A program made the position numbers and the translations under genes. The notes under the pieces were generated by a model, which worked only from the letters and a program-made list of their open reading frames with translations, searched no databases and was not told the origin of the DNA. Below, piece after piece: positions 2,712-42,566 of a DNA stretch of 64,000 nt. This DNA comes from a virus. Location: positions 1-64,000 of IMG/VR virus record IMGVR_UViG_3300035670_000068; one strand, written 5' to 3'. Each line of letters opens with the position of its first letter. Position 1 is the stretch's first letter.

Positions 2712-5700
2712 TAGGCTACCTCCCTTAGCCTGAGCTCAGCCTTGAGTTCGTCGAGCTCGGCTTTTAGCTCTTTGATAGCCTCGACCAACAGAGGAACCAG
2801 GCGCTCGTATTTCAGAGTCAGGTAGTTCTCACCAGACTTCGAGACGTTCGGGTCTTCCGATACGTCGAACGGAGCCAGCTCGACGGCCTCTGGAGCGACC
2901 TTCTTCACGTCCTGAGCGAGAAGGCCGATCTCTTTCTTGCCACGGTCGTATCCGAATGTCGCCGCCAACTCGTTAGCGTTGTAACGAACGCCGGTGAGTT
3001 GGGTCACAGACCACAGCGCGTTCTCGATAGGCTTGATGTTTTCCTTCAAGCGCTCGTCGGAGTAGTAGGCGATGATGTTGCCGGACGCTGCAATTTGGTT
3101 GGCGACGTACAGAGGCTTGCCGCCGTAGCAGCGCATCCATGTGGTGTCGGTCATGTGCCAGCCGCCGCCATAGGATTCCCAATAGATTCCGTTGCTGCCA
3201 GTTGAGCGCACCCACCCTGTTACATACTGTTCACCATTAACCTTAAAGCTCCCGCCGTACAATTCCAGCAAGTCATCGCTTGACAGAATCAGACGAACGT
3301 CAAAGTCGGTAGAGGCGTCATTGGAAAAGTCGAGGAATGGGGTTCCGCCGTTGGATCGCAACTCAGCCCAAGGAGCATGAGCTCCTCCCGTCATCGAAGT
3401 GGCGCCAGTAAAACTCGGAGAGGCAAGAGGCGCCTTCGCGTCCAAAGCTGCCTGCAAGCCATCGACGTTGCCGATGACGTGATTGTGACTGTCGTCGGTG
3501 ACGATCACTGCAATGCTGACGTTGGCCGAGCCATCGAAAGCGACCGAGCCAGATGCGTCGCCAGTCAGACTGATGGTACGGGCCGTCGTCAGCTTGTCGG
3601 CGGAGCCAGCGCTTGCAGCCTGTTGGTTCGCCAGAGCTGTGATCTGAGCTTGGAGCTTGCCGGCTGCAACGAGAATCGAGTCAGTGGCTGCAATAGCGGC
3701 GTTTGTCGATACGGACAGACCAGTCAGAGCTGCGGCACGAACGTCGGTGGCGAAGTCTCTCCAGGTCTTGTCACCTCGCCAGTAATGAACCGTGCCGCCA
3801 GCTGTGATCGCAGGCTCTTTTGTCGAGTCCGCAATGGTGATGTTCGCAGAGCCGTCGAAGGCCACGCCGTTGATCGTGCGCGAGGTCGCCAGCTTGGTAG
3901 CGGTTGCAGCGTTCTTACTGATGCTGATCGGCCAGTTGTTAGCAAAGTCCGTTGCGTCCACCTGGAGCAGAAGACCGCTTGCAGACCAGCCGATCTTGAC
4001 GATGTTTGTGCTCTGGCCCGCCCCGGTGCCTTGCTGAACAGGGGTGAAGCCCAGGGCAGCCTGTTTCCCGTCCAGGGCAGCCTGCAAGCCATCCACGTTG
4101 CTGATGACGTGGTTGTGACTGTCGTCTACAACCACCACGGTGATGGATGCGTTGGCGGAGCCGTCGAAAGACACCGAGCCTGTGGCATCGCCGGTTAGGG
4201 AGATCGTTCTTGCGGTGGCGAGCTTTGAAGCGGCTACAGCTGTGGCGCCGGCTCCCAGTGCTCCAACATCGGAGGCGTTGAGAGTGACAACTCCAGTTTT
4301 GCCGTTGACCGAGGAAACGGACTCGGTGTTGTCGATCTTGTAGAACTGATCCAGGTTCTTGGAGTAGACGAGCGTATCGCCAACGCCATAAACGTCAGTG
4401 CCGACCGTTCCACCGACCGTCACCTTCCAGAAAGCTGCGGTAGATGGTTTTGTCGGATACACACCAGAGGAAAGATCGATGGAGCCGAGTTCTGACATAG
4501 AGCCAGTTAAGCTACCTGCCGCCAAAACAGCCTGATCTCTGGCAGTTTCAGCAGCGGTCTTTGCAGACTCAGCAGCGGTCTTTGCAGTCTGAGCAGCGGT
4601 CTTGGCGGTTTCAGCAGCGGTCTTTGCAGACTCAGCCGCAGTTTTGCTTGCAGAGGCCGCAGTTGCAGAAGAGGCCGCATTAGATGCGCTTGTCGCCGCC
4701 TTGGTAGCGTGATGCTTCGCGGAGAACTTGCCAGTCTCCACAGCAACGTCAACCGCCTCTTCTGCCCACTTGCCAGCCTTCACCTCACTAGCGCTAGCAG
4801 CCGTTGCGCTGGTAGCCGCTGCAGATGCGCTGGTGGACGCCTCAGTAGCTTTTGTAGATGCGGTAGTTGCGCTGGTGGCGGCGGCGTTCTTGCTGCTGGT
4901 AGCGCTGGCCTCCAAGGAAACTACGTTGGACTGTCGGTTGGTTACGTCAGTCTGACGAGTAATCACATCGTTCTGGCGAGTAATCACATCGTTCTGGCGT
5001 GTCTGCGCGTCAGCAGCGCTGTTAGCTGCTGCAGTGGCGTGATGCTTAGCGGAATACTGACCACCGCTAACCGGGCCGCCAGTCTTTTCAGCCCAGTCCC
5101 TTGCAGTGTTCGACGAGGTTTGAGCAGAAGAAGCAGAGCTGGCGGCGTTAGCTTCTGCAGTTTGAGCGCCAGCCCTAGCCGTTTCAGCGGCAGTCTTTGC
5201 TGTTTCGGCTGCCGTCTTGGCAGCTTCAGCGGCGTTCTTGGCTGTCTGAGCTGCAGTTGCGGAGTTTGCGGCGCCAGTAGCGGAGCCGGCAGCGTTCGTT
5301 GCGCTGGTCGCAGCTTCACTCGCCTTCGTCGAAGCGGTGGTCGCTGAGGCTGCAGCGTTCGTTTCAGAGGTTGCGGCGGCATTCTTCGAAGCGGTAGCGG
5401 AGGTCGCTGAGCTCGATGCGCTGGTAGCCGACGCAGCAGCTTTCAGAGCGTGGTGCTTGGCGGAGAACTGGCCCGTTACAACGGCGGTGTTCTCTGGGTT
5501 CTCTGCCCACTTCTGAGCGAGCGTTGCCGAGGCCGCTGCGGCGTTTTTGTACCCGAGAATTTGATCAGCCCAGGTCTGCTGGTTGCCGATAGCTAAGAGT
5601 CGCGCTTCGGCGTCGGTCAGAGCGGCCTGAGTCTCGTCAATCAGGTCTTCCTGCTGCTGGACGCGAAGGTTGTGCTCGTAGTCGAGCTGTCGCGGGCTCT

Positions 5701-6097
5701 TCAGATAGACGGTCACGCCATAGCGATCTGTCATCGGGAACTTGCCGGCGTCTGCAGCTCCGGTCGTGACCGGCTCAGCGTTGATCCAATCAACGAACTC
5801 GTCGAGGGTTCGCTGACGGTCGGTCAGGAACTCTTCGATCTTCTTCATCAGATCGAAGTTGCTGGCGTTGGTCAGGTTGCGAATGATTGCGAACGGAACG
5901 CCGGTTAGGTTTGCTCCGGTCCAGGCGGTAGCCAGCTTGAGCTTGGTGTCGGATTCTGCGCGAACGATCTCGGTCAGAACGCCGTTCACCAGCAGAATGT
6001 CAGAGAAGCGAACTTCGGATTTGAAGGCGGTGCCGACGCCGACAACATCGACACTGCCGTTTACGAGGTTGATCTTGCCTTCGCGATACCAGGACAT
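2711..6097 (-). CDS. Tail fibre with S74 chaperone domain
   Basis: 1128 residues. The N-terminus (MSWYREGKINLVNGS) is the common siphovirus fibre attachment domain; I use the ATG at 6097, with AGG seven bases upstream, not one three codons earlier. Residues about 170-560 are an Ala/Thr/Ser-rich coiled coil with heptads, including RQNDVITRQNDVITRQ. Two copies of a beta module follow (LTGDATGSVSFDGSAN and LTGDASGSVAFDGSAN). The C-terminus is an intramolecular chaperone of the peptidase S74 type: SDERLKENI holds the catalytic Ser-Asp and conserved Arg/Lys, followed by GLLAQDV and a Leu-rich coil. Self-cleavage after trimerisation is the family's known behaviour. It should carry receptor binding. 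Confidence 0.93.
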   Translation of the reverse strand: MSWYREGKINLVNGSVDVVGVGTAFKSEVRFSDILLVNGVLTEIVRAESDTKLKLATAWTGANLTGVPFAIIRNLTNASNFDLMKKIEEFLTDRQRTLDEFVDWINAEPVTTGAADAGKFPMTDRYGVTVYLKSPRQLDYEHNLRVQQQEDLIDETQAALTDAEARLLAIGNQQTWADQILGYKNAAAASATLAQKWAENPENTAVVTGQFSAKHHALKAAASATSASSSATSATASKNAAATSETNAAASATTASTKASEAATSATNAAGSATGAANSATAAQTAKNAAEAAKTAAETAKTAAETARAGAQTAEANAASSASSAQTSSNTARDWAEKTGGPVSGGQYSAKHHATAAANSAADAQTRQNDVITRQNDVITRQTDVTNRQSNVVSLEASATSSKNAAATSATTASTKATEASTSASAAATSATAASASEVKAGKWAEEAVDVAVETGKFSAKHHATKAATSASNAASSATAASASKTAAESAKTAAETAKTAAQTAKTAAESAKTAAETARDQAVLAAGSLTGSMSELGSIDLSSGVYPTKPSTAAFWKVTVGGTVGTDVYGVGDTLVYSKNLDQFYKIDNTESVSSVNGKTGVVTLNASDVGALGAGATAVAASKLATARTISLTGDATGSVSFDGSANASITVVVVDDSHNHVISNVDGLQAALDGKQAALGFTPVQQGTGAGQSTNIVKIGWSASGLLLQVDATDFANNWPISISKNAATATKLATSRTINGVAFDGSANITIADSTKEPAITAGGTVHYWRGDKTWRDFATDVRAAALTGLSVSTNAAIAATDSILVAAGKLQAQITALANQQAASAGSADKLTTARTISLTGDASGSVAFDGSANVSIAVIVTDDSHNHVIGNVDGLQAALDAKAPLASPSFTGATSMTGGAHAPWAELRSNGGTPFLDFSNDASTDFDVRLILSSDDLLELYGGSFKVNGEQYVTGWVRSTGSNGIYWESYGGGWHMTDTTWMRCYGGKPLYVANQIAASGNIIAYYSDERLKENIKPIENALWSVTQLTGVRYNANELAATFGYDRGKKEIGLLAQDVKKVAPEAVELAPFDVSEDPNVSKSGENYLTLKYERLVPLLVEAIKELKAELDELKAELRLREVA

Positions 6098-6129
6098 TGC
6101 CCACACCTAGAAAAATCTGAATGAGCAGT

Positions 6130-6157
6130 ATTATAACTAACTAAGGCGTTAGTTAGT
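6130..6157 (-). promoter_or_regulatory. Palindrome copy 2 with TATAAT
   Basis: Arms ACTAACTAA/TTAGTTAGT around GGCG (6136-6157). TATAAT (6130-6135) abuts the palindrome on the minus strand, 33 bases before the tail-fibre ATG. This is the best example of the palindrome acting in the -35 position of a promoter. Confidence 0.7.
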
Positions 6158-6529
6158 AGTCCAACGCTCCAAGCGGAGATCAGCCATCGTGACCCGATCA
6201 CCTGCTTCGAGAGCGTCTTTCAGCTCCTTGGCCCGTTGGAAGACGTTCAGCGTGTGCCGGCCCATCAGGCTCTCCGCTTTGACCATCAGATCGTACAGTT
6301 CGGCCCGGTTCATCCTCGCACTGGTGTTGTCGTAAAAGAACCACTCGACCTCTTCACCCTCTTCCATACTGGAGATCACGTCGCGCATCCGCTGCCTGCT
6401 GATGTTGTCAAACTGGAGCAGCTTTCCTTCCACTCGAATGACGGTCTCAGCAATGCGCCTGGAAGAGTTGATATCGCCCTTGGTGGCCTCGATCAGCGAT
6501 CTCGGATCGTGATTACCCAACGATGGCAT
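6149..6529 (-). CDS. Hypothetical protein, 126 aa
   Basis: Not recognised. Predicted almost entirely helical with many Arg/Glu, for example SSRRIAETVIRVEGKLLQFD and LNVFQRAKELKDALEAGDRV, and no membrane segment. Its last codons fall inside palindrome copy 2, so gene end and regulatory site overlap. It overlaps the upstream gene by 17 bases. Between methyltransferase and fibre genes; a chaperone or assembly factor would fit the helical character, but this is a guess. Confidence 0.7.
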   Translation of the reverse strand: MPSLGNHDPRSLIEATKGDINSSRRIAETVIRVEGKLLQFDNISRQRMRDVISSMEEGEEVEWFFYDNTSARMNRAELYDLMVKAESLMGRHTLNVFQRAKELKDALEAGDRVTMADLRLERWTTN

Positions 6530-6911
6530 TTACTTCTACCTCTTTGGCTGGGAAGTTGGAGAACTTGAAGTAGTAGCTGCCCGGCTCGTTCGTCGACCAC
6601 TCGATGAAGCCATCATCTACCTTCGTTCTGCCGCCCGGATAGATCAGGTCGGTGCCTACCGGGATTCCTTCGATCCGAAGCACTTCGCCCACTGCCAGGT
6701 AAGCGTCGCCCTGGATGGACAGCGCCATTTCCGGTCTGGGTTCCGGCGAGCCGTCCTTGATGTAGAACTCGCGACCGTCTACTTCAAGATCGAGAATGGC
6801 TTCGAGGTCTTCTCGACCCATCTTTTGCAACAAAACGCTTTCCTCGTCGGGCGCCACGACGTTCATGACGATTCGCCCAGACTGTTTTTCGTATAGCAGA
6901 CCTACTTTCAA
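6513..6911 (-). CDS. Hypothetical protein, 132 aa
   Basis: Beta-rich protein with short strands (KVGLLYEKQSGRIVMNVVAP, EFYIKDGSPEPRPEMALSIQ, GSYYFKFSNFPAKEVEVNAI). Starts at TTG 6911 overlapping the upstream TGA, with AGGAG eight bases upstream. The composition resembles tail-fibre assembly or fibre-attached proteins, and neighbouring genes support a tail-tip location. Family not identified. Confidence 0.65.
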   Translation of the reverse strand: MKVGLLYEKQSGRIVMNVVAPDEESVLLQKMGREDLEAILDLEVDGREFYIKDGSPEPRPEMALSIQGDAYLAVGEVLRIEGIPVGTDLIYPGGRTKVDDGFIEWSTNEPGSYYFKFSNFPAKEVEVNAIVG

Positions 6912-7657
6912 TTTCTTCTCCTGTAATTCGCCTCTATGTATGGCGACGGGTTCATCAGGTGAGATATCGAATCCAACCTGGGTTCATCGAGCTCGAAGCC
7001 AGCTTTCTTCATCGCCTGGTCAATCTCGGATGGAAAGTAAGGCTTCCAGTGAGGCTGCAGCAGCCAGTGCCGGAGTTGCTTCTCTTCCTTGATCATCCGA
7101 TCAACGAACCGCCTCTTGCTGTCGGTAAGCGGCATCGAGCTAACTAAGCTGTGAATTAGCATTTTAGCCTGAGTCATATCGCCAAGCGATAGCCACAAGT
7201 CTAGGAACGCCTCTCTTACCCCTTTCAGATCGCCCCAGAAGAACTCAGAGTCGTACCCGAAGTGAGCTACCGTTCCTGCCATCGAGCACTTCCCCAACAG
7301 AGAAAATACCTGCTCGAATGCCTGCTCTGGAATCCAGGACAGAAGACCTGGTGAGCCTATGAATCCGAAGGAGCCAATGCTCTCGTCGATCTCGGAAAAG
7401 TCCGCTCTGATGTATCTGACGTTCGCCGGCGCCATTCTTCTGGCCGCTTCGATATAGCCCCGATTGAAGTCGATGCCGACAATGGACCAGTCCGGGTTTC
7501 TCAAAGCCATATCGTTGACCGCGATTCCGTCCCCGCAGCCTAGAATCAAAGCGGACTTTAGCTCCGCTCTTTCTATAGCTCTCTCGATTCTCGGCATCTG
7601 CGCTGAGAGATAACTGGTCTCTGCGGAAAGTTGGTAGTTGGAAACACCGTTGATCAT
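6908..7657 (-). CDS. SAM-dependent methyltransferase-like protein
   Basis: About 249 residues. Rossmann-type class I methyltransferase core: motif I ALILGCGDGIAVN near residue 40, motif II acidic end WSIVGIDFN, then VRYIRADFSEID, the adenine-binding Asp loop, and FIGSPGLLSWI as motif IV region. The C-terminal half is a variable helical substrate domain. I take the ATG at 7657 in an ATGA overlap; an ATG four codons upstream is also possible. It is unusual inside a tail-tip block. DNA-methylase catalytic signatures (DPPY, PCQ) are absent, so protein or small-molecule methylation is more likely. Confidence 0.7.
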   Translation of the reverse strand: MINGVSNYQLSAETSYLSAQMPRIERAIERAELKSALILGCGDGIAVNDMALRNPDWSIVGIDFNRGYIEAARRMAPANVRYIRADFSEIDESIGSFGFIGSPGLLSWIPEQAFEQVFSLLGKCSMAGTVAHFGYDSEFFWGDLKGVREAFLDLWLSLGDMTQAKMLIHSLVSSMPLTDSKRRFVDRMIKEEKQLRHWLLQPHWKPYFPSEIDQAMKKAGFELDEPRLDSISHLMNPSPYIEANYRRRN

Positions 7658-8211
7658 CGCTTTCTGCATCCTACGGTTACAGCTCCCAGGAAGACCAGTT
7701 TGATCTCGCCCGTTCCTGTCTGATTGCTCATAGTTGGCGAATCCTGCAGCACCAAACTGTACGAGGTAGCAGAGTTTGCGCTGATCTCGAAGTCGATGAA
7801 ACGAACCACCTGCATAACTGGAATGTAGCCGACAAGACCACCGCCTTTGTCTGCTCTCTTATATTCGGTATTGATGTTCACCGCTTCTGTTCTGTACAGG
7901 GCGCCATTTTTGTACAGGTGAATGTACCCAATGGCATTGATACCCTTCGCTTCGATTCGCATTGGAACAATAATGTCCGCTACCCTGGCAAAAGGCTGGG
8001 CCGGAATTGCGAAGTCCACTCTTTTGGACTCAGCTGCGAAGTTGAAACCGTAATAGGCGGAAACTGCGCCATCGCGGATATTCACTTCTCTAACCGCCTC
8101 GATATTGTCAGACGAGAATGTTCCAGAGAACGTCCCGGATGCACCGACCATTCGACCGCGAAAGATCGCGTTTGCGTCGTTGAACTCTGCCCAACCAGCT
8201 GGAATCGTCAT
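7654..8211 (-). CDS. Tail-tip paralogue A, 185 aa
   Basis: One of three adjacent proteins sharing an N-terminal module: here NAIFRGRMVGASGTFSGTFS followed by IEAVREVNIRDGAVSAYY. The module (FxG-x-hhGAxGxF-x-G-x4-xx-I-x-AV-x-x-x-I) recurs at 8208-8666 and 8668-9276. The C-terminal part is a different beta-sandwich-like domain (GLVGYIPVMQVVRFIDFEIS). Downstream of gpJ, such proteins are expected to decorate the tail tip, with the shared module as the docking part and the rest as the variable binding head. This reading is inference. Confidence 0.7.
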   Translation of the reverse strand: MTIPAGWAEFNDANAIFRGRMVGASGTFSGTFSSDNIEAVREVNIRDGAVSAYYGFNFAAESKRVDFAIPAQPFARVADIIVPMRIEAKGINAIGYIHLYKNGALYRTEAVNINTEYKRADKGGGLVGYIPVMQVVRFIDFEISANSATSYSLVLQDSPTMSNQTGTGEIKLVFLGAVTVGCRKR

Positions 8212-28791: not shown

Positions 28792-29130
28792 CTATTCCAG
28801 AATCAGCTCCACCACGTCATCCTCCACCACTTCGCGGTAAGTCACCGGAGCGGGCTTGGATGCCGGGTTGAGGATTCTCTTGGCCACAGCCGTTGGCGCT
28901 ACTGTCTGCCTCGCCCGACCATCCCGGATTTCCTTGCCTTCGCGCTCGATCCACCCCTGGTTGACCAGGATTCGAATCGAGCACATCAGCGACTCGCGGG
29001 AGGTCTTGTACGGCAGCCGATCCAGAATCTGCTGGTAGTCGCACCAGCTGACCCAGGCGCCTTTCGCATCGATGTTGCCGGCCATGACGACTTTCATCAG
29101 GGCGGTCTGCTTTCTTGTGAGTGGCTTCAT
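28792..29130 (-). CDS. Winged-helix DNA-binding protein, 112 aa
   Basis: N-terminal winged helix: LTRKQTALMKVVMAG (helix 1), WVSWCDYQQILDRL (helix 2), TSRESLMCSIRILVNQGWIE (recognition helix and wing) and an Arg-rich wing EIRDGRARQTVAP. Last gene of the ParB/ABC/GNAT operon, ATG overlapping the upstream stop. It is the clearest regulator-like protein of the window and a candidate reader of the dispersed palindromes, though nothing ties it to them directly. Confidence 0.7.
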   Translation of the reverse strand: MKPLTRKQTALMKVVMAGNIDAKGAWVSWCDYQQILDRLPYKTSRESLMCSIRILVNQGWIEREGKEIRDGRARQTVAPTAVAKRILNPASKPAPVTYREVVEDDVVELILE

Positions 29131-30005
29131 AGCAAATCAAGCCTCAGAGGTTCGTTGGGTTTCTGGAAGTCGAAGGCTTTCAGTGGAAGTCGATCAGGCA
29201 GCTTCCGGCCCAGGTCAGGGTTCTGCCAAATCCCGTAGACCGGGCTTGCGAACACCAACTGCTGCAGCTCGCGGAGCAAGTGCGCCGGCTCCATTGCATC
29301 GACCTTGCCCGTGCCGACGTTCAGGTTCGATCCGGTTTTTTCGCGACTGGAGTGCCGGTAGTAAAACGCCCTCATCTCTTCAAGAGCCTTCTCGCAAAGA
29401 GCCGGTGGCATCTGGGCCAGTTCTTCCATGACAGCCTGGTGATCCGCAGGGTGAGCCTTGAACAGACTCCGCATGAATTTCAGACCCTTCTCGTAGGCCG
29501 CTGCGGATTTCAGGTGCGCGTGCTTGAAACCGGACTTGGTGTCGAAGGGGTTGAACTTGCTCATGGACGACTGGATTTCCACGAACTTGTAACCCTCCAT
29601 CCGCATGGCCAGGTTGACCATCCGGTAGCTCACGCCCACGCCTCGGTACATGGTGTCCGTGACGATCCGCGCCGCTCGACGGAAGTTCGCGTTCAGGTAT
29701 GTCGCTCGATGGACGTTGGTGAAGTGCGAGTCCTTGCCAGGCTTCAACTTGGGGAAGACCTGGTGTCGCGGAGCCAACAGCAGCGCAACCGAGCTCAGCA
29801 CCACCACGCCAACCAGGGAGTTATCCCGGTAGTTGACGCAGCGCCAGAAGTGCGGACCTGCAGGCAGGGTTTCCGCCTTGTAGTGGAGGTCGTGCAGCTC
29901 GTCCCAATCTGCCTTGGTTCCGCGCTCGACCCACATATCGTCCATCAGCGAAAACCGGGGCTTTGCGTCGTCCCTGCGTTCGATGATCAGGTCGTGGTCA
30001 GTCAC
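29127..30005 (-). CDS. Mom-like GNAT acyltransferase
   Basis: 292 residues from GTG 30005 (GGAG upstream, overlapping the previous stop). Features of the Mom/GNAT group: LHDLHYKAETLPAGPHFWRC with the His-Tyr of the active centre, strand LVGVVVLSSV, VHRATYLNANFRRAARIVTD as the linking helix, and YRGVGVSYRMV as the acetyl-CoA pyrophosphate loop (RxVGVS). FVEIQSSMSKFNPFDTKSGF then matches the last strand and helix. Mom of phage Mu adds an acyl-type group to adenine in DNA. The adjacent ABC ATPase reproduces, as two genes, the COG2401 fusion of an ABC ATPase with an acetyltransferase. Substrate unknown. Confidence 0.75.
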   Translation of the reverse strand: MTDHDLIIERRDDAKPRFSLMDDMWVERGTKADWDELHDLHYKAETLPAGPHFWRCVNYRDNSLVGVVVLSSVALLLAPRHQVFPKLKPGKDSHFTNVHRATYLNANFRRAARIVTDTMYRGVGVSYRMVNLAMRMEGYKFVEIQSSMSKFNPFDTKSGFKHAHLKSAAAYEKGLKFMRSLFKAHPADHQAVMEELAQMPPALCEKALEEMRAFYYRHSSREKTGSNLNVGTGKVDAMEPAHLLRELQQLVFASPVYGIWQNPDLGRKLPDRLPLKAFDFQKPNEPLRLDLL

Positions 30006-30318
30006 TGGAACCGCTCTCCGTCGGTTGCAGGCCCTTTTCCAGCTTTGCGACCAGACTCTTGAGACAGTCGATCGCCTCTTGATCACTGATCAAGTCACCG
30101 TCCATGAGCATCGCTTCACCGTCCACCGCGATCACGATCATGCGGTTCGGATCGCCGCCCTCACCGGCAGTCGAAACAGCCAGGTCAGCCATTGCTGCAG
30201 TCAGACCCTTGAAGTCTTCGTCCTTGTACGGGTTGTAAACCGGGGCTTCCTCACCCAGCTGCTCGCGGCCTTTCACCTTGCGGTTCTTGAAGTCCACACG
30301 AATCAGTTCACAGGTCAT
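29998..30318 (-). CDS. Small protein of modification operon, 106 aa
   Basis: Not recognised. Strand-rich N-terminus (CELIRVDFKNRKVKGREQL), middle PYKDEDFKGLTAAMADLAVS, and strand RMIVIAVDGEAMLMDGDLIS. No Cys pair or membrane segment. Sits between the ABC ATPase and the acyltransferase, overlapping both, so it is probably made in fixed ratio with them and may be an adaptor. Confidence 0.65.
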   Translation of the reverse strand: MTCELIRVDFKNRKVKGREQLGEEAPVYNPYKDEDFKGLTAAMADLAVSTAGEGGDPNRMIVIAVDGEAMLMDGDLISDQEAIDCLKSLVAKLEKGLQPTESGSSD

Positions 30319-30952
30319 TTCTTGTCACCATCATTTCGATCTTGTCCTTGAAGCGCTTCTCGACGTAGATCGTCGGCGCCAGCTCTTCCAGGAGGTCTTT
30401 GTGGGTAGTGGCCACGATCAGAGTCGCGCCACACTGTTTTGCGAATTTGCGGACGTTGAAGCCAACGACCTTGGCGGTTGTGCGATCCAGAACGGCGCCG
30501 AACTCGTCAGCGACCCAGACCTTGCAGCCGCTCTCCATGAGCTTCGCGACCCGGAAGCGGTAACGCTGGCCGTCAGACAGCTCGCTCGGCTTGCGGATGA
30601 ACAGGTAGGCGTCGTTCAAGCCGGCCAGGTTCAGGATGCGAATCGCCTCTTCGGTGGTCTTACCCACCTGGTCGATCAGCGGCACTTCCAGGAGCTCAAC
30701 CTTGTCGATATCAGCGACCGGCTGCTCTTCGGCGATCTGCTTGGCCAGCTCTTTCAGCAGCAGGGACTTGCCCGAGCCTGACTGGCCGGTGATGTAGATC
30801 ACGTCGCCCTGGCGAACATCGAGCATCAGGTCGTCGTAGACCGTGAACTCTTTGTCTTCCAGGCCCAGGCCGAACGCTTCTGCGCACTCCAAGACCCGCT
30901 GAGAGCGGGTCACGGTGGTCTTGAACGACTTGCGGATCAGGTAGCTGCTCAC
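30308..30952 (-). CDS. ABC-type ATPase of modification operon
   Basis: 214 residues, GTG start in a GTGA overlap. Walker A ITGQSGSGKSLLLKELA near 50-66, signature ELSDGQRYRFRVAK near 130, Walker B CKVWVADEFGAVLDR near 145-160, H-loop VATTHKDL. No membrane domain, so not a transporter; it belongs with soluble ABC ATPases such as those fused to acetyltransferases in COG2401. It may load or clamp the acyltransferase on DNA. The YRFRVAK after the signature is consistent with that group. Confidence 0.85.
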   Translation of the reverse strand: MSSYLIRKSFKTTVTRSQRVLECAEAFGLGLEDKEFTVYDDLMLDVRQGDVIYITGQSGSGKSLLLKELAKQIAEEQPVADIDKVELLEVPLIDQVGKTTEEAIRILNLAGLNDAYLFIRKPSELSDGQRYRFRVAKLMESGCKVWVADEFGAVLDRTTAKVVGFNVRKFAKQCGATLIVATTHKDLLEELAPTIYVEKRFKDKIEMMVTRNDL

Positions 30953-31641
30953 GCCTCACCCCCAGCGAACTGGCCGGCGAATACGGTCAGAGCCTCGGCA
31001 CCCTGCAGGCCTGTTTCAGCCTCGATGATCGCGACGAACTTCTTGACCAGGCGAGCCTGCTCGCTGGTGAAGCTGGCGAAGCCCAGGACTTTGCCGACCG
31101 GGACAGAAGACTTGTCGGACTGCTCGATCTCGGTGGCGGTGCGCTCGGTCTGCTCGATCACTTCTGCGGAAATGTCATCGCTCAGCGCGCCAAGGTCGAT
31201 CTCGCCCAGGTCGTCGATGGCGAAGTTCAGATCGCGCTCGTCGAAGAACTTGGACATATCGAAGTCCAGGTCCAGCACCAGCTCGCGCAGTTCCTCGGAC
31301 AGCAGGCCTGTGTCGTAACCGCCCTCTTGGACCTTGTTGTCGATCAGGCGGAGGGCTCGGGCTTGCTCCTTCGTGATGCCTTTCAGCACCAGCACCGGGA
31401 CTTCGCCCTTCGGGTCAATCGAGATCGCTGCCAGGCGGCGACCATGACCGGCGATGATCGTGCCGTCTTCTTCAACGACGATGCGGGTGATCCAGCCGTT
31501 CTGGCGAATCGACTCTGCGATCTTGGCCACCTGCTTGGGCTCATGCTTCTTGGCGTTCTTCTCATACGGAATGAGCCTGGACACCGACCAGGTTTCTTCG
31601 GAGCGGACGATGCCGCTGAAATCAGTCGAAGTGGTTGCCAT
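30949..31641 (-). CDS. ParB-fold protein B, 230 aa
   Basis: ParB/Srx-like N-terminal domain: LIPYEKNAKKHEPKQVAKIA, SIRQNGWITRIVVEEDGTII, AGHGRRLAAISI with the GHGR box that binds a nucleotide in ParB. The remainder is acidic and helical. Starts at ATG 31641 (three codons after an alternative TTG). Two different ParB-fold proteins in one operon with an ABC ATPase and a Mom-like enzyme suggest roles in DNA recognition or nucleotide handling for modification, not plasmid partition; there is no ParA. Confidence 0.85.
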   Translation of the reverse strand: MATTSTDFSGIVRSEETWSVSRLIPYEKNAKKHEPKQVAKIAESIRQNGWITRIVVEEDGTIIAGHGRRLAAISIDPKGEVPVLVLKGITKEQARALRLIDNKVQEGGYDTGLLSEELRELVLDLDFDMSKFFDERDLNFAIDDLGEIDLGALSDDISAEVIEQTERTATEIEQSDKSSVPVGKVLGFASFTSEQARLVKKFVAIIEAETGLQGAEALTVFAGQFAGGEA

Positions 31642-31798
31642 CAAAATCAAGTTCCATGCTGGTGAAGTCTTCGGTCGATTCCCAGGTCAGGTCACGATCC
31701 GGGTTCAGCGGGCGCACCCGCTCGGGCTTTTCCCGTTTCAGGCGCTCGCAGGCCTCTTCAACGGGGTTCAGTGCGATGTGAGGTCTTTCTTTCGGCAT
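31622..31798 (-). CDS. Small acidic protein, 58 aa
   Basis: Short open frame between the two ParB-fold genes, starting ATG 31798 and overlapping the second ParB gene by 20 bases. Sequence begins MPKERPHIALNPVEEACERL and ends MELDFDGNHFD; the amino-acid make-up and tight packing look like a real gene, but the ribosome site is weak because the palindrome lies just upstream. Confidence 0.55.
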   Translation of the reverse strand: MPKERPHIALNPVEEACERLKREKPERVRPLNPDRDLTWESTEDFTSMELDFDGNHFD

Positions 31799-40836: not shown

Positions 40837-41105
40837 TTTGCTTACTCCGCTTGGTTGTGAAAGGTTAGCTCCGTAGCCCGCTCTCCCCTATTCCCGTTTT
40901 CGTCGTGACTCCCGGCAGTCCCATAACCCGTAGGTTGTGTAAGGGGTGAGGTTCTAGATTCCTCCTGCCGGCTGTGTAAGGACGACTTCCGGGTATTCGG
41001 CTCGCAGGCTCCTGTAGGGCCAGACTGTTAAACTTTTTTCTAAGACTTTGACACTTTGCATATATGCGCAAGTGTTCTAGATTCACACTCGCATATATAC
41101 ATATA
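40837..41105. other. Intergenic gap with TGTGTAAGG motifs
   Basis: About 270 bases with no credible gene. Left part is GC-rich and contains two TGTGTAAGG elements (about 40935 and 40974), one followed by GGTTCTAGATT. At 41018-41022 the composition switches abruptly to the GG/CC-free island. An imperfect hairpin ACACTTGC/GCAAAGTGT lies at about 41046-41076. Confidence 0.6.
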
Positions 41106-41285
41106 TTATTGTTCGATAATATCATTCATCGCTTTAATATATAACTTCGCGCTTATTGCTTTAAGTGCGCGCATTTTCATCAGCTCAAACAATTGCGCTG
41201 CAACTTCAAACGATACAACTTTAACGCGATACTTCGTACTAACAATTACGCAGTCAGCGTTAATAACTCGAATATTGATGCTCAT
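41106..41285 (-). CDS. Gly/Pro/Trp-free protein, 59 aa
   Basis: Small gene in the GG/CC-free island. ATG 41285 with GCGAGAG nine bases upstream (a ribosome site without GG). The protein starts MSINIRVINADCVIVSTKYR, has a strand-helix layout and a basic helix (LFELMKMRALKAISAKLYIK). It contains no Gly, Pro or Trp, exactly the residues whose codons need GG or CC. Preceded by TATAAT at 41307-41312 and palindrome copy 13. Codon use is very unlike the rest of the window. Function unknown; size and early-type promoter would suit an inhibitor of a host system. Confidence 0.8.
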   Translation of the reverse strand: MSINIRVINADCVIVSTKYRVKVVSFEVAAQLFELMKMRALKAISAKLYIKAMNDIIEQ

Positions 41286-41306
41286 ATATAATCTCTCGCT
41301 TATTTA

Positions 41307-41346
41307 ATTATATATCTAGTGAGTTAGCTATTAACTAACTCACTAG
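41307..41346 (-). promoter_or_regulatory. Palindrome copy 13 with TATAAT
   Basis: CTAGTGAGTTAG-CTATTAA-CTAACTCACTAG, perfect 12-base arms (41316-41346), the longest of the family, with TATAAT at 41307-41312 on the minus strand. Contains no GG or CC, unlike the loops of many other copies. Confidence 0.75.
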
Positions 41347-41358
41347 ATAGTGTACAAG

Positions 41359-41904
41359 TTACTTGCTGTAAACTTCGAGCAATGCTTTCAGAAACGCATT
41401 GCTATAATCGAAAGTTACTTTCTTATCACTTGCGCTGTACTGCGCGAAGCTAAAGAACTGAGCGAAAGTCTTAAAGTAGCTTGCTTGCGTCAGCGTTTCG
41501 TGCTGCATCTCGCGCTTGATCTGTTCGAGCGTCAAGCTAGCGTCGTGCTTTGCTGCGAGTCGCTGCAGCAGCGCGTCAAGCGCTTTGTCGCGTACTCGCG
41601 CAGAGTGCGCGACAGCTTCGAGCATTGCGATAGAACGCTTCTTACACTCGCGCGACTGCTGAGCGAGCTGCTTAGCGTCGAGCTTGTGCGAGTGCAGCAG
41701 CGCTAGCGCTTTTTCGCTCATATCTGCGAGCGCTTGAGTGTAAGTCTCGTGAGTGTGAGCGCGCTTTGCTGTTTTAGTGAGTGCGTCGCGCTCTTCTTGA
41801 GCTTCGACACTTTCGAGCTTTTGCAGCGCTTCATTTTTAACGCTTTCGTGCTCGTTAGCAGCTACAGCGAAAACATTCTTGATTGCTTCGATTGCTTTAG
41901 TCAT
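41359..41904 (-). CDS. Gly/Pro/Trp-free helical protein, 181 aa
   Basis: ATG 41904 with AAGAGAGAG upstream (purine-rich but without GG). Nearly all-helical, Ala/Lys/Glu/Leu-rich (MTKAIEAIKNVFAVAANEHE, EKALALLHSHKLDAKQLAQQ), His-rich middle (AKRAHTHETYTQAL), aromatic C-terminal part (SYFKTFAQFFSFAQYSASDK). No Gly, Pro or Trp in 181 residues. The frame is open upstream to 42150 with two CxxC pairs, but offers no start codon there, so I treat it as leader. No family recognised. Two sigma70-like promoters upstream predict strong, early expression. Confidence 0.82.
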   Translation of the reverse strand: MTKAIEAIKNVFAVAANEHESVKNEALQKLESVEAQEERDALTKTAKRAHTHETYTQALADMSEKALALLHSHKLDAKQLAQQSRECKKRSIAMLEAVAHSARVRDKALDALLQRLAAKHDASLTLEQIKREMQHETLTQASYFKTFAQFFSFAQYSASDKKVTFDYSNAFLKALLEVYSK

Positions 41905-42073
41905 GATTTTTCTCTCTCTTGAAAATTGCGCTTTTTGCGCTATTGATTTAAGTTTGATTTTCTTTGCTTCATTGTGCGCGACAGACTGCGCGCAGATAAA
42001 GCATCGATCTAGATTGTTAAAGAGCGTCGAGCTTTTCAGCTCTAGAGAGTGTGTTTCGTCTCTCTTGATGCAC

Positions 42074-42101
42074 AGTTTACAGCGTACAGGAACAGCGTCA
42101 A
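42074..42101 (-). promoter_or_regulatory. sigma70-like promoter P2 of the island
   Basis: Minus strand TTGACG (42096-42101), 16-base spacer, TAAACT (42074-42079), preceded by AAAAAACGC. The only GG near here (42089-42090, CC on this strand) lies in the spacer. Confidence 0.75.
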
Positions 42102-42218: not shown

Positions 42219-42271
42219 GCGTTTTTTGTGCAAAATAGAAAATTCGCAAAAGTCAAGAAGATTTTTTTGGG

Positions 42272-42566
42272 TGAGGATCATCCGCATCGGCGGGCCGTCC
42301 GCACTTGAGGAACTCCCACGGATAAGGAAGGACCACGGTTGAGGATGATCCGCATCCGGGTCCACAGCCGTGGGTGAGGACGATCCGCATCCGCAGCCAA
42401 GGGCGATCCTCAACCGAGGATCAGCCGTGGTGGTATGGCGCTCCCGCCACGGGGCTTGTTCATCCGGCAGCCTTATACCTAAAGGCCGCCATAGGAAAAT
42501 TCCTGGGCCACGGCTATCCCTATATAGGCGCTATGGAAACTCCCACGGTGACTCCCGGACTGACAA
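42272..42566. repeat. Non-coding region rich in CCACGG/CCGTGG
   Basis: About 295 bases with no gene. Repeats of GATGATCCGCATCCG/GAGGATC type and seven CCACGG or CCGTGG hexamers. It borders the GG/CC-free region and is the opposite in composition. Confidence 0.7.
42470..42505. repeat. AGCCTTATA repeat element, copy 1
   Basis: AGCCTTATA, then AAAGGCC, then ATAGGAAAATTCC. The same order appears at 44116-44150 with small differences, in a similar CCGTGG-rich setting. Confidence 0.7.

Follow-up and report, generated by a model that had tools for sequence, protein, structure and literature searches.

A single operon per genome purged of GG and CC by selection on DNA in related phages

In related phages of 80-120 kb, each genome has one transcription unit, located at a matching place, that ongoing selection on DNA keeps purged of the dinucleotides GG and CC or, depending on the phage, of the trinucleotides GGB and VCC. 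The purge spans the DNA from the inferred transcription start of a gene referred to here as gene A to the promoter of the next operon, and a weaker avoidance of GG/CC extends over about 150 bp upstream of this strict zone. That the constraint operates at the DNA level and is tied to transcription is well supported by the evidence presented below.

The window analysed here is a stretch of 64,000 nucleotides, the first 64 kb of a virus record with a full length of 110,316 bp. Positions 41022-42088 contain 0 GG and 0 CC in 1067 bp where composition predicts 101.8, in line with the original prediction of none against about 100 expected. A CC at 41020 and a GG at 42089 flank the run, so these bounds are exact, and the entire record has no other GG/CC-free run longer than 106 bp. 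The island encodes two proteins on the minus strand, of 181 residues (gene A, 41359-41904) and 59 residues (gene B, 41106-41285), both of which lack Gly, Pro and Trp, as had been noted. Synonymous resampling with the phage’s own codon usage yielded 52.5 +/- 6.2 GG/CC for gene A (minimum 34 in 5000) and 11.0 for gene B, while both genes have 0; the 341 bp of non-coding DNA in the island also contain 0, against 23.0 expected. These synonymous-codon and non-coding tests rule out a cause acting on the protein only, and any protein-level cause is unlikely. Low G+C was likewise ruled out, given the island’s G+C content of about 43% and the normal GG/CC of AT-rich control windows. An assembly artefact, the objection raised in advance, was ruled out by the presence of the same pattern in independent isolates and assemblies. 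Besides the GG/CC words, no further forbidden 3-5-mers were detected in the island, and no known RNA family matched it above threshold.

The non-coding elements within the island obey the same rule. Gene A is preceded on the minus strand by a predicted sigma70-like promoter (42074-42101, TTGACG-16-TAAACT) with a layout common to 14 phages, and a CC in its spacer, corresponding to the GG at 42089-42090 on the plus strand, sets the island boundary. In the leader 3’ of the -10 (41905-42073, minus strand), direct reading shows the ribosome site GAGAGAGA in place of GGAGG; ribosome sites expected to be of GAGAG type indeed read as GAGAGA. The anticipated palindrome is real: it is GG/CC-free and separates genes A and B (41313-41349). 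The 3’ edge of the island is marked by a promoter-like element of the next operon (41026-41054, minus strand, TGTCA-17-TTAACA), the spacer of which holds a conserved CAAAGTCTTAG. Next to it, at 40853-40981 on the minus strand, lie the repeats CCTTACACAGCC (from 40981), CCTTACACAACC (from 40944) and CCTTTCACAACC, which adjoin the island in relatives as well. Upstream of the island, an array of imperfect palindromes of the TGAGGATCATCCGCA type (42268-42428) possibly represents operators, and diverged palindrome arrays occupy the matching upstream place in relatives; in L011, for example, the island starts at 7840 and an array of TGAGAATCATTCTCA-type palindromes lies in the 550 bp or so that precede it.

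Homologues of gene A were found in Nickievirus (nickie, for which two records represent one phage, Nican01, phiK7B1, ZY21 and hairong (Pseudomonas syringae)) and in IMG/VR contigs. Homologous islands are present in all 6 Nickievirus records and in IMG/VR relatives, with GG/CC-free runs of 1083 (Nican01), 1115 (phiK7B1), 1137 (nickie) and 1108 (ZY21), these four being gap lengths between flanking GG/CC, 1124 (hairong), 1489 (L011), 1071 (L012) and 1291 (L013); in L010 one CC splits the run into 875+176, and the L022 island has a single exception, AGGA. Gene A proteins of the close group share 48-59% identity with that of the window. Between the pairs tested, 25-51% of the shared identical residues use differing codons, and each gene contains 0 or 1 GG/CC. 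Within-gene shuffles of synonymous codons, which mostly test codon junctions, gave means of 13-24 GG/CC and never reached the observed value in 2000 trials. Codons therefore drift while GG/CC stays near 0, indicating that the rule is actively maintained and does not reflect recent descent. The comparison with relatives that had been proposed as a check thus upholds the view that the constraint lies on the nucleic acid. L028 contains two gene A paralogues (2851-3402 and 5674-6195), only the second of which lies in a motif-free island; the homologue outside the island is unconstrained and contains GG/CC freely. A leaky island was also seen in L024 (5701-6759, about 5 GG/CC against about 90 expected), which may show per-site tolerance.

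Some phages follow a longer word. The island of L016 has 19 GG, all within GGA, and 16 CC, all within TCC, so that GGB and VCC are absent over 1289 bp, where the next-best run without them is 111. The same GGB/VCC rule holds in L078 (61% G+C) over 1430 bp with one exception and 12 TCC kept, and in the island copy of L028 for about 660 bp, with 9 TCC kept and a single exception located after the promoter. Since GGA and TCC occur in these three phages near the number predicted from composition (GGA higher in L028), the third base must be read, and since GGB and VCC are exact reverse complements, the rule is as expected for a word read in duplex DNA. Both strands obey it in 18 of the 19 tabulated islands. 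The exception is L017, where the rule holds mainly on the sense strand: this strand obeys GGB (16 GGA, 3 others), while 44 non-T CC are present and CC is about half depleted, as expected if template-strand sites matter most. Which variant is followed, GG/CC or GGB/VCC, depends on the phage lineage.

The edges of the island were compared with those of the predicted transcript; promoters and terminators are readings of the sequence, the former made by eye. In the 14 phages, the gene A promoter is of the TTGCAC-16-TAGAAT type. Its spacer contains a GG/CC violation in 8 of the 14, while the 40 bp after the -10 contain none in any of them (0 in 560 bp). As a ratio to the composition-based expectation, GG/CC stands at about 1.0 between -500 and -400, falls to 0.2 between -150 and -6 and to 0.00-0.03 downstream of the -10, and recovers to 1.3 once 30 bp past the conserved CAAAGTCTTAG, compared with 0.87-0.97 for control windows rich in AT. 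Thus, about 150 bp of untranscribed upstream DNA are depleted some 5-fold, which favours DNA over RNA as the target and sustains the earlier deduction of double-stranded DNA from strand symmetry, although an RNA-level cause could be readmitted if the upstream depletion came from unrecognised upstream transcripts. Given this depletion, we dropped the notion that the upstream edge is exactly the transcription start. In L078, the sole exception sits between the intrinsic terminator of gene A and the promoter of gene B, as read from the sequence, and in RHph_X66 the first GG lies about 26 nt past the predicted intrinsic terminator. The constraint is limited to one predicted transcription unit, the flanks of which are full of CC. 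Just past the island, the sense strand is strongly C-rich and G-poor in L016 (8932-9200), L017 (after 8960) and L078 (7027-7230), and these stretches resemble Rho-dependent terminators.

The island-bearing phages have replication and packaging genes common to the SSU5 phage-plasmid group, Rhizobium phages and Stenotrophomonas phages. A scan located islands in the Rhizobium phages RHEph10 (NC_034248, ~98.8-100.0 kb) and RHph_X66 (MW960030, ~6.7-7.5 kb), and further islands of the Rhizobium type measure 1349 bp (L099), 1338 bp (L100) and 1125 bp (L098); no full island was seen in two wider relatives, Stenotrophomonas ANB28 and the part of SSU5 before position 98999. The neighbourhood of the Rhizobium islands is comparable, with an HslV-type peptidase, then helicase, ParB-like genes and terminase. 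Relative to the CAAAGTCTTAG-type element, the genes there run the other way round, and a single conserved GGG lies some 75-85 bp inside it. The Rhizobium island proteins are of two types with a mutual identity of only 25%; the 188-residue protein is similar in size to the gene A product, with no detectable homology to it, and its single-sequence fold prediction reached a pLDDT of 43.7. In RHEph10, the annotated plus-strand gene gp097 (L095 2106-2786, equivalent to NC_034248 99105-99785) is probably spurious, the actual GG/CC-poor gene for the 188-residue protein being on the opposite strand at 99198-99761.

The AlphaFold2 model of the gene A product (mean pLDDT 95.8) begins with two long helices at the N terminus, and its C-terminal part shows the order of helices and strands seen in a winged helix. 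Foldseek returned many MarR-type winged-helix look-alikes in the PDB, none with an E value of 0.1 or lower, which leaves the winged helix as an interpretation of the model; against viral models it returned one uncultured phage protein (E = 6e-4). Judging from the model, the gene A product is probably a DNA-binding protein. Searches of gene A by Pfam, PHROGs, PADLOC and PDB sequence gave nothing useful, no relatives were found in one representative genome per species, and a search of plasmids with the L022 gene A protein returned none. Among Pseudomonas-type phages, we found no non-structural family of clear size other than gene A that tracks the island; gene B is absent in relatives or swapped for unrelated small genes.

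Together, these data require a factor that recognises GG/CC or GGB/VCC (in DNA, on the simplest view), that matters for one operon, that matters most where RNA polymerase passes, and whose word varies by phage lineage. They suggest that a GG or CC in the operon would let some GG/CC reader shut it off. A phage-encoded transcription block with an exempt operon fits all four requirements, its main versions being a silencer protein, a base modification of virion DNA and a primase site, while an RNA-level model is weaker. We tentatively favour, at somewhat below an even chance, the explanation that a phage-encoded motif reader blocks transcription and that the island is exempt. During infection, a phage-encoded activity would read the GG/CC-type motif in duplex DNA, by binding or chemical marking, and would hinder RNA polymerase wherever it acts. 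The island operon alone would still have to be transcribed during the block, so that each GG/CC within it would cost fitness; since GG/CC abound elsewhere in the genome, the block would have to be transient, or later genes would need a way around it. The narrower proposal, in which a phage-encoded global silencer reads a 2-3-bp word (GG or GGB) in host and phage DNA alike, with one operon purged and the word co-evolving, is plausible but doubtful. The winged-helix product of gene A might itself read the motif or be a partner of the reader, and gene A would then be spared from silencing by its own product. It is the candidate we favour for this role because the motif tracks the lineage and gene A tracks the island, but to name it as the reader is a guess; the presence and absence of other genes across phages singled out no motif reader, and the lack of homology between gene A and the Rhizobium island protein counts against the favoured explanation, although the two are similar in size and the Rhizobium types themselves have little sequence identity to each other.

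Several known systems resemble the exemption of one operon proposed here. T4 Alc terminates transcription on cytosine-containing DNA, and is thus also a phage factor that stops host RNA polymerase according to template chemistry with its own genes exempt; T4, however, exempts its whole genome through hydroxymethylcytosine, whereas here the exemption would be written in the sequence of one operon. Phages also avoid restriction sites, which is again selection against a short DNA word, but the island rule concerns 2-3 bp, is non-palindromic and spans about 1 kb, while the remaining genome shows the word at normal frequency. The chlorella virus enzyme CviPII (CCD), of the frequent nicking and methylation system type, reads a 3-base CC-type motif; no such enzyme was seen here, and the island motif is VCC, not CCD, and is avoided in one operon only. 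Finally, Pseudomonas aeruginosa phages avoid CC through PAM depletion, which is statistical and genome-wide (PMC12174588), unlike the absolute rule of the island, which covers both strands of one operon and allows TCC in several lineages. In open-licence papers, we found no description of such a GG/CC-free island, nor of a sequence-based self-exemption of one operon. Selection against a dinucleotide is here strong enough to strip conserved proteins of Gly, Pro and Trp, and ribosome sites of GG; the one-operon rule is held across phages of gamma- and alphaproteobacteria, and the reader of the word seems to recognise 2-3 bp of double-stranded DNA. If true, this would give a virus a novel means of distinguishing one of its own genes from all other DNA in the cell, an idea directly testable in cultured phages such as nickie and RHEph10.

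Other explanations place the cause outside a transcription block, or at the level of RNA. Were a CC-preferring deaminase to erase CC/GG in the transcribed region, the resemblance of VCC to a deaminase context and the CT/AG steps at about 1.2-1.3 times expectation would follow, but the absolute number of GC steps exceeds that in the flanks, the avoidance at codon junctions operates context by context, and the loss of all Gly/Pro/Trp codons from conserved proteins is hardly achievable by mutation alone; we regard this origin as extremely improbable. Escape from host defence, whether type I-F CRISPR, restriction or another system, is scarcely more credible. CC is the type I-F PAM and I-F-targeted P. 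aeruginosa phages show genome-wide CC depletion (PMC12174588), and type I-F escape had been the leading example in the original prediction. However, TCC, still a CC PAM, is near neutral in L016, L078 and L028, CC is no more than about half depleted in L017, the CC-rich remainder of each genome is targetable, RHEph10, RHph_X66 and their relatives carry the island as well, and the motif follows phage lineage; the type I-F idea is thus not supported. An mRNA that escapes a phage or host ribonuclease or RNA-binding protein recognising GG and CC is improbable rather than far-fetched: the strict zone coincides with the inferred transcript and L017 mainly keeps the sense-strand rule. Yet that GGB and VCC are exact reverse complements (L016, L078) is natural for duplex DNA but would be coincidental in a single RNA strand, the depletion extends to upstream DNA that is untranscribed, and a constraint on the transcribed strand only, as for mRNA-interferase escape, is at odds with the two-stranded rule in nearly all islands. 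The RNase idea had already been called less likely, and the motif symmetry and upstream depletion agree with that judgement.

Two further explanations keep the motif at the DNA level, in a form other than a silencer protein. In the one, which we consider quite unlikely, GG/CC (VCC on the template strand) would be the start site of a phage DnaG-type primase and the island a primer-free zone at a transcription-primed origin. A single cis-like element at a conserved position with repeats on both sides, a short motif of the primase type, the one-strand case of L017 and the presence of a phage DnaG in records of nickie, SSU5 and Rhizobium phages all speak for it; against it, the island edges track promoter and terminator, the only violation in L078 falls in an untranscribed gap, and the rule in L028 holds over about 660 bp only. 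In the other, a phage-made base modification at GG/CC (or VCC) in virion DNA would slow host RNA polymerase, with the first-expressed operon spared. This remains on the unlikely side, although the lineage-specific 2-3-bp motif, the strand bias of L017 and the DNA-level signal all fit, and a conserved module adjoining the terminase comprises two ParB-like proteins and an ABC-type ATPase; ParB domains have been reported next to phage cytosine-modification genes (PMC12783734). Pfam recognised no modification enzyme among 49 nickie proteins, however, the sole chemistry nearby is a thymidylate synthase, and the phrog_886 part of the module also occurs in SSU5, where the scan showed no island. The original suggestion of the phage’s own base modification therefore lives on as a version of the favoured transcription block, while no dedicated hypermodification enzyme was recognised.

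The terminase-adjoining module lies at 3383-7187 in nickie (L007) and at 28792-31650 in the window. One of its ParB-like proteins is labelled as a DNA methyltransferase, its ABC-type ATPase resembles the MADS defence proteins mad3/mad8, and phrog_886 is annotated elsewhere as an ATPase fused to an acyltransferase.
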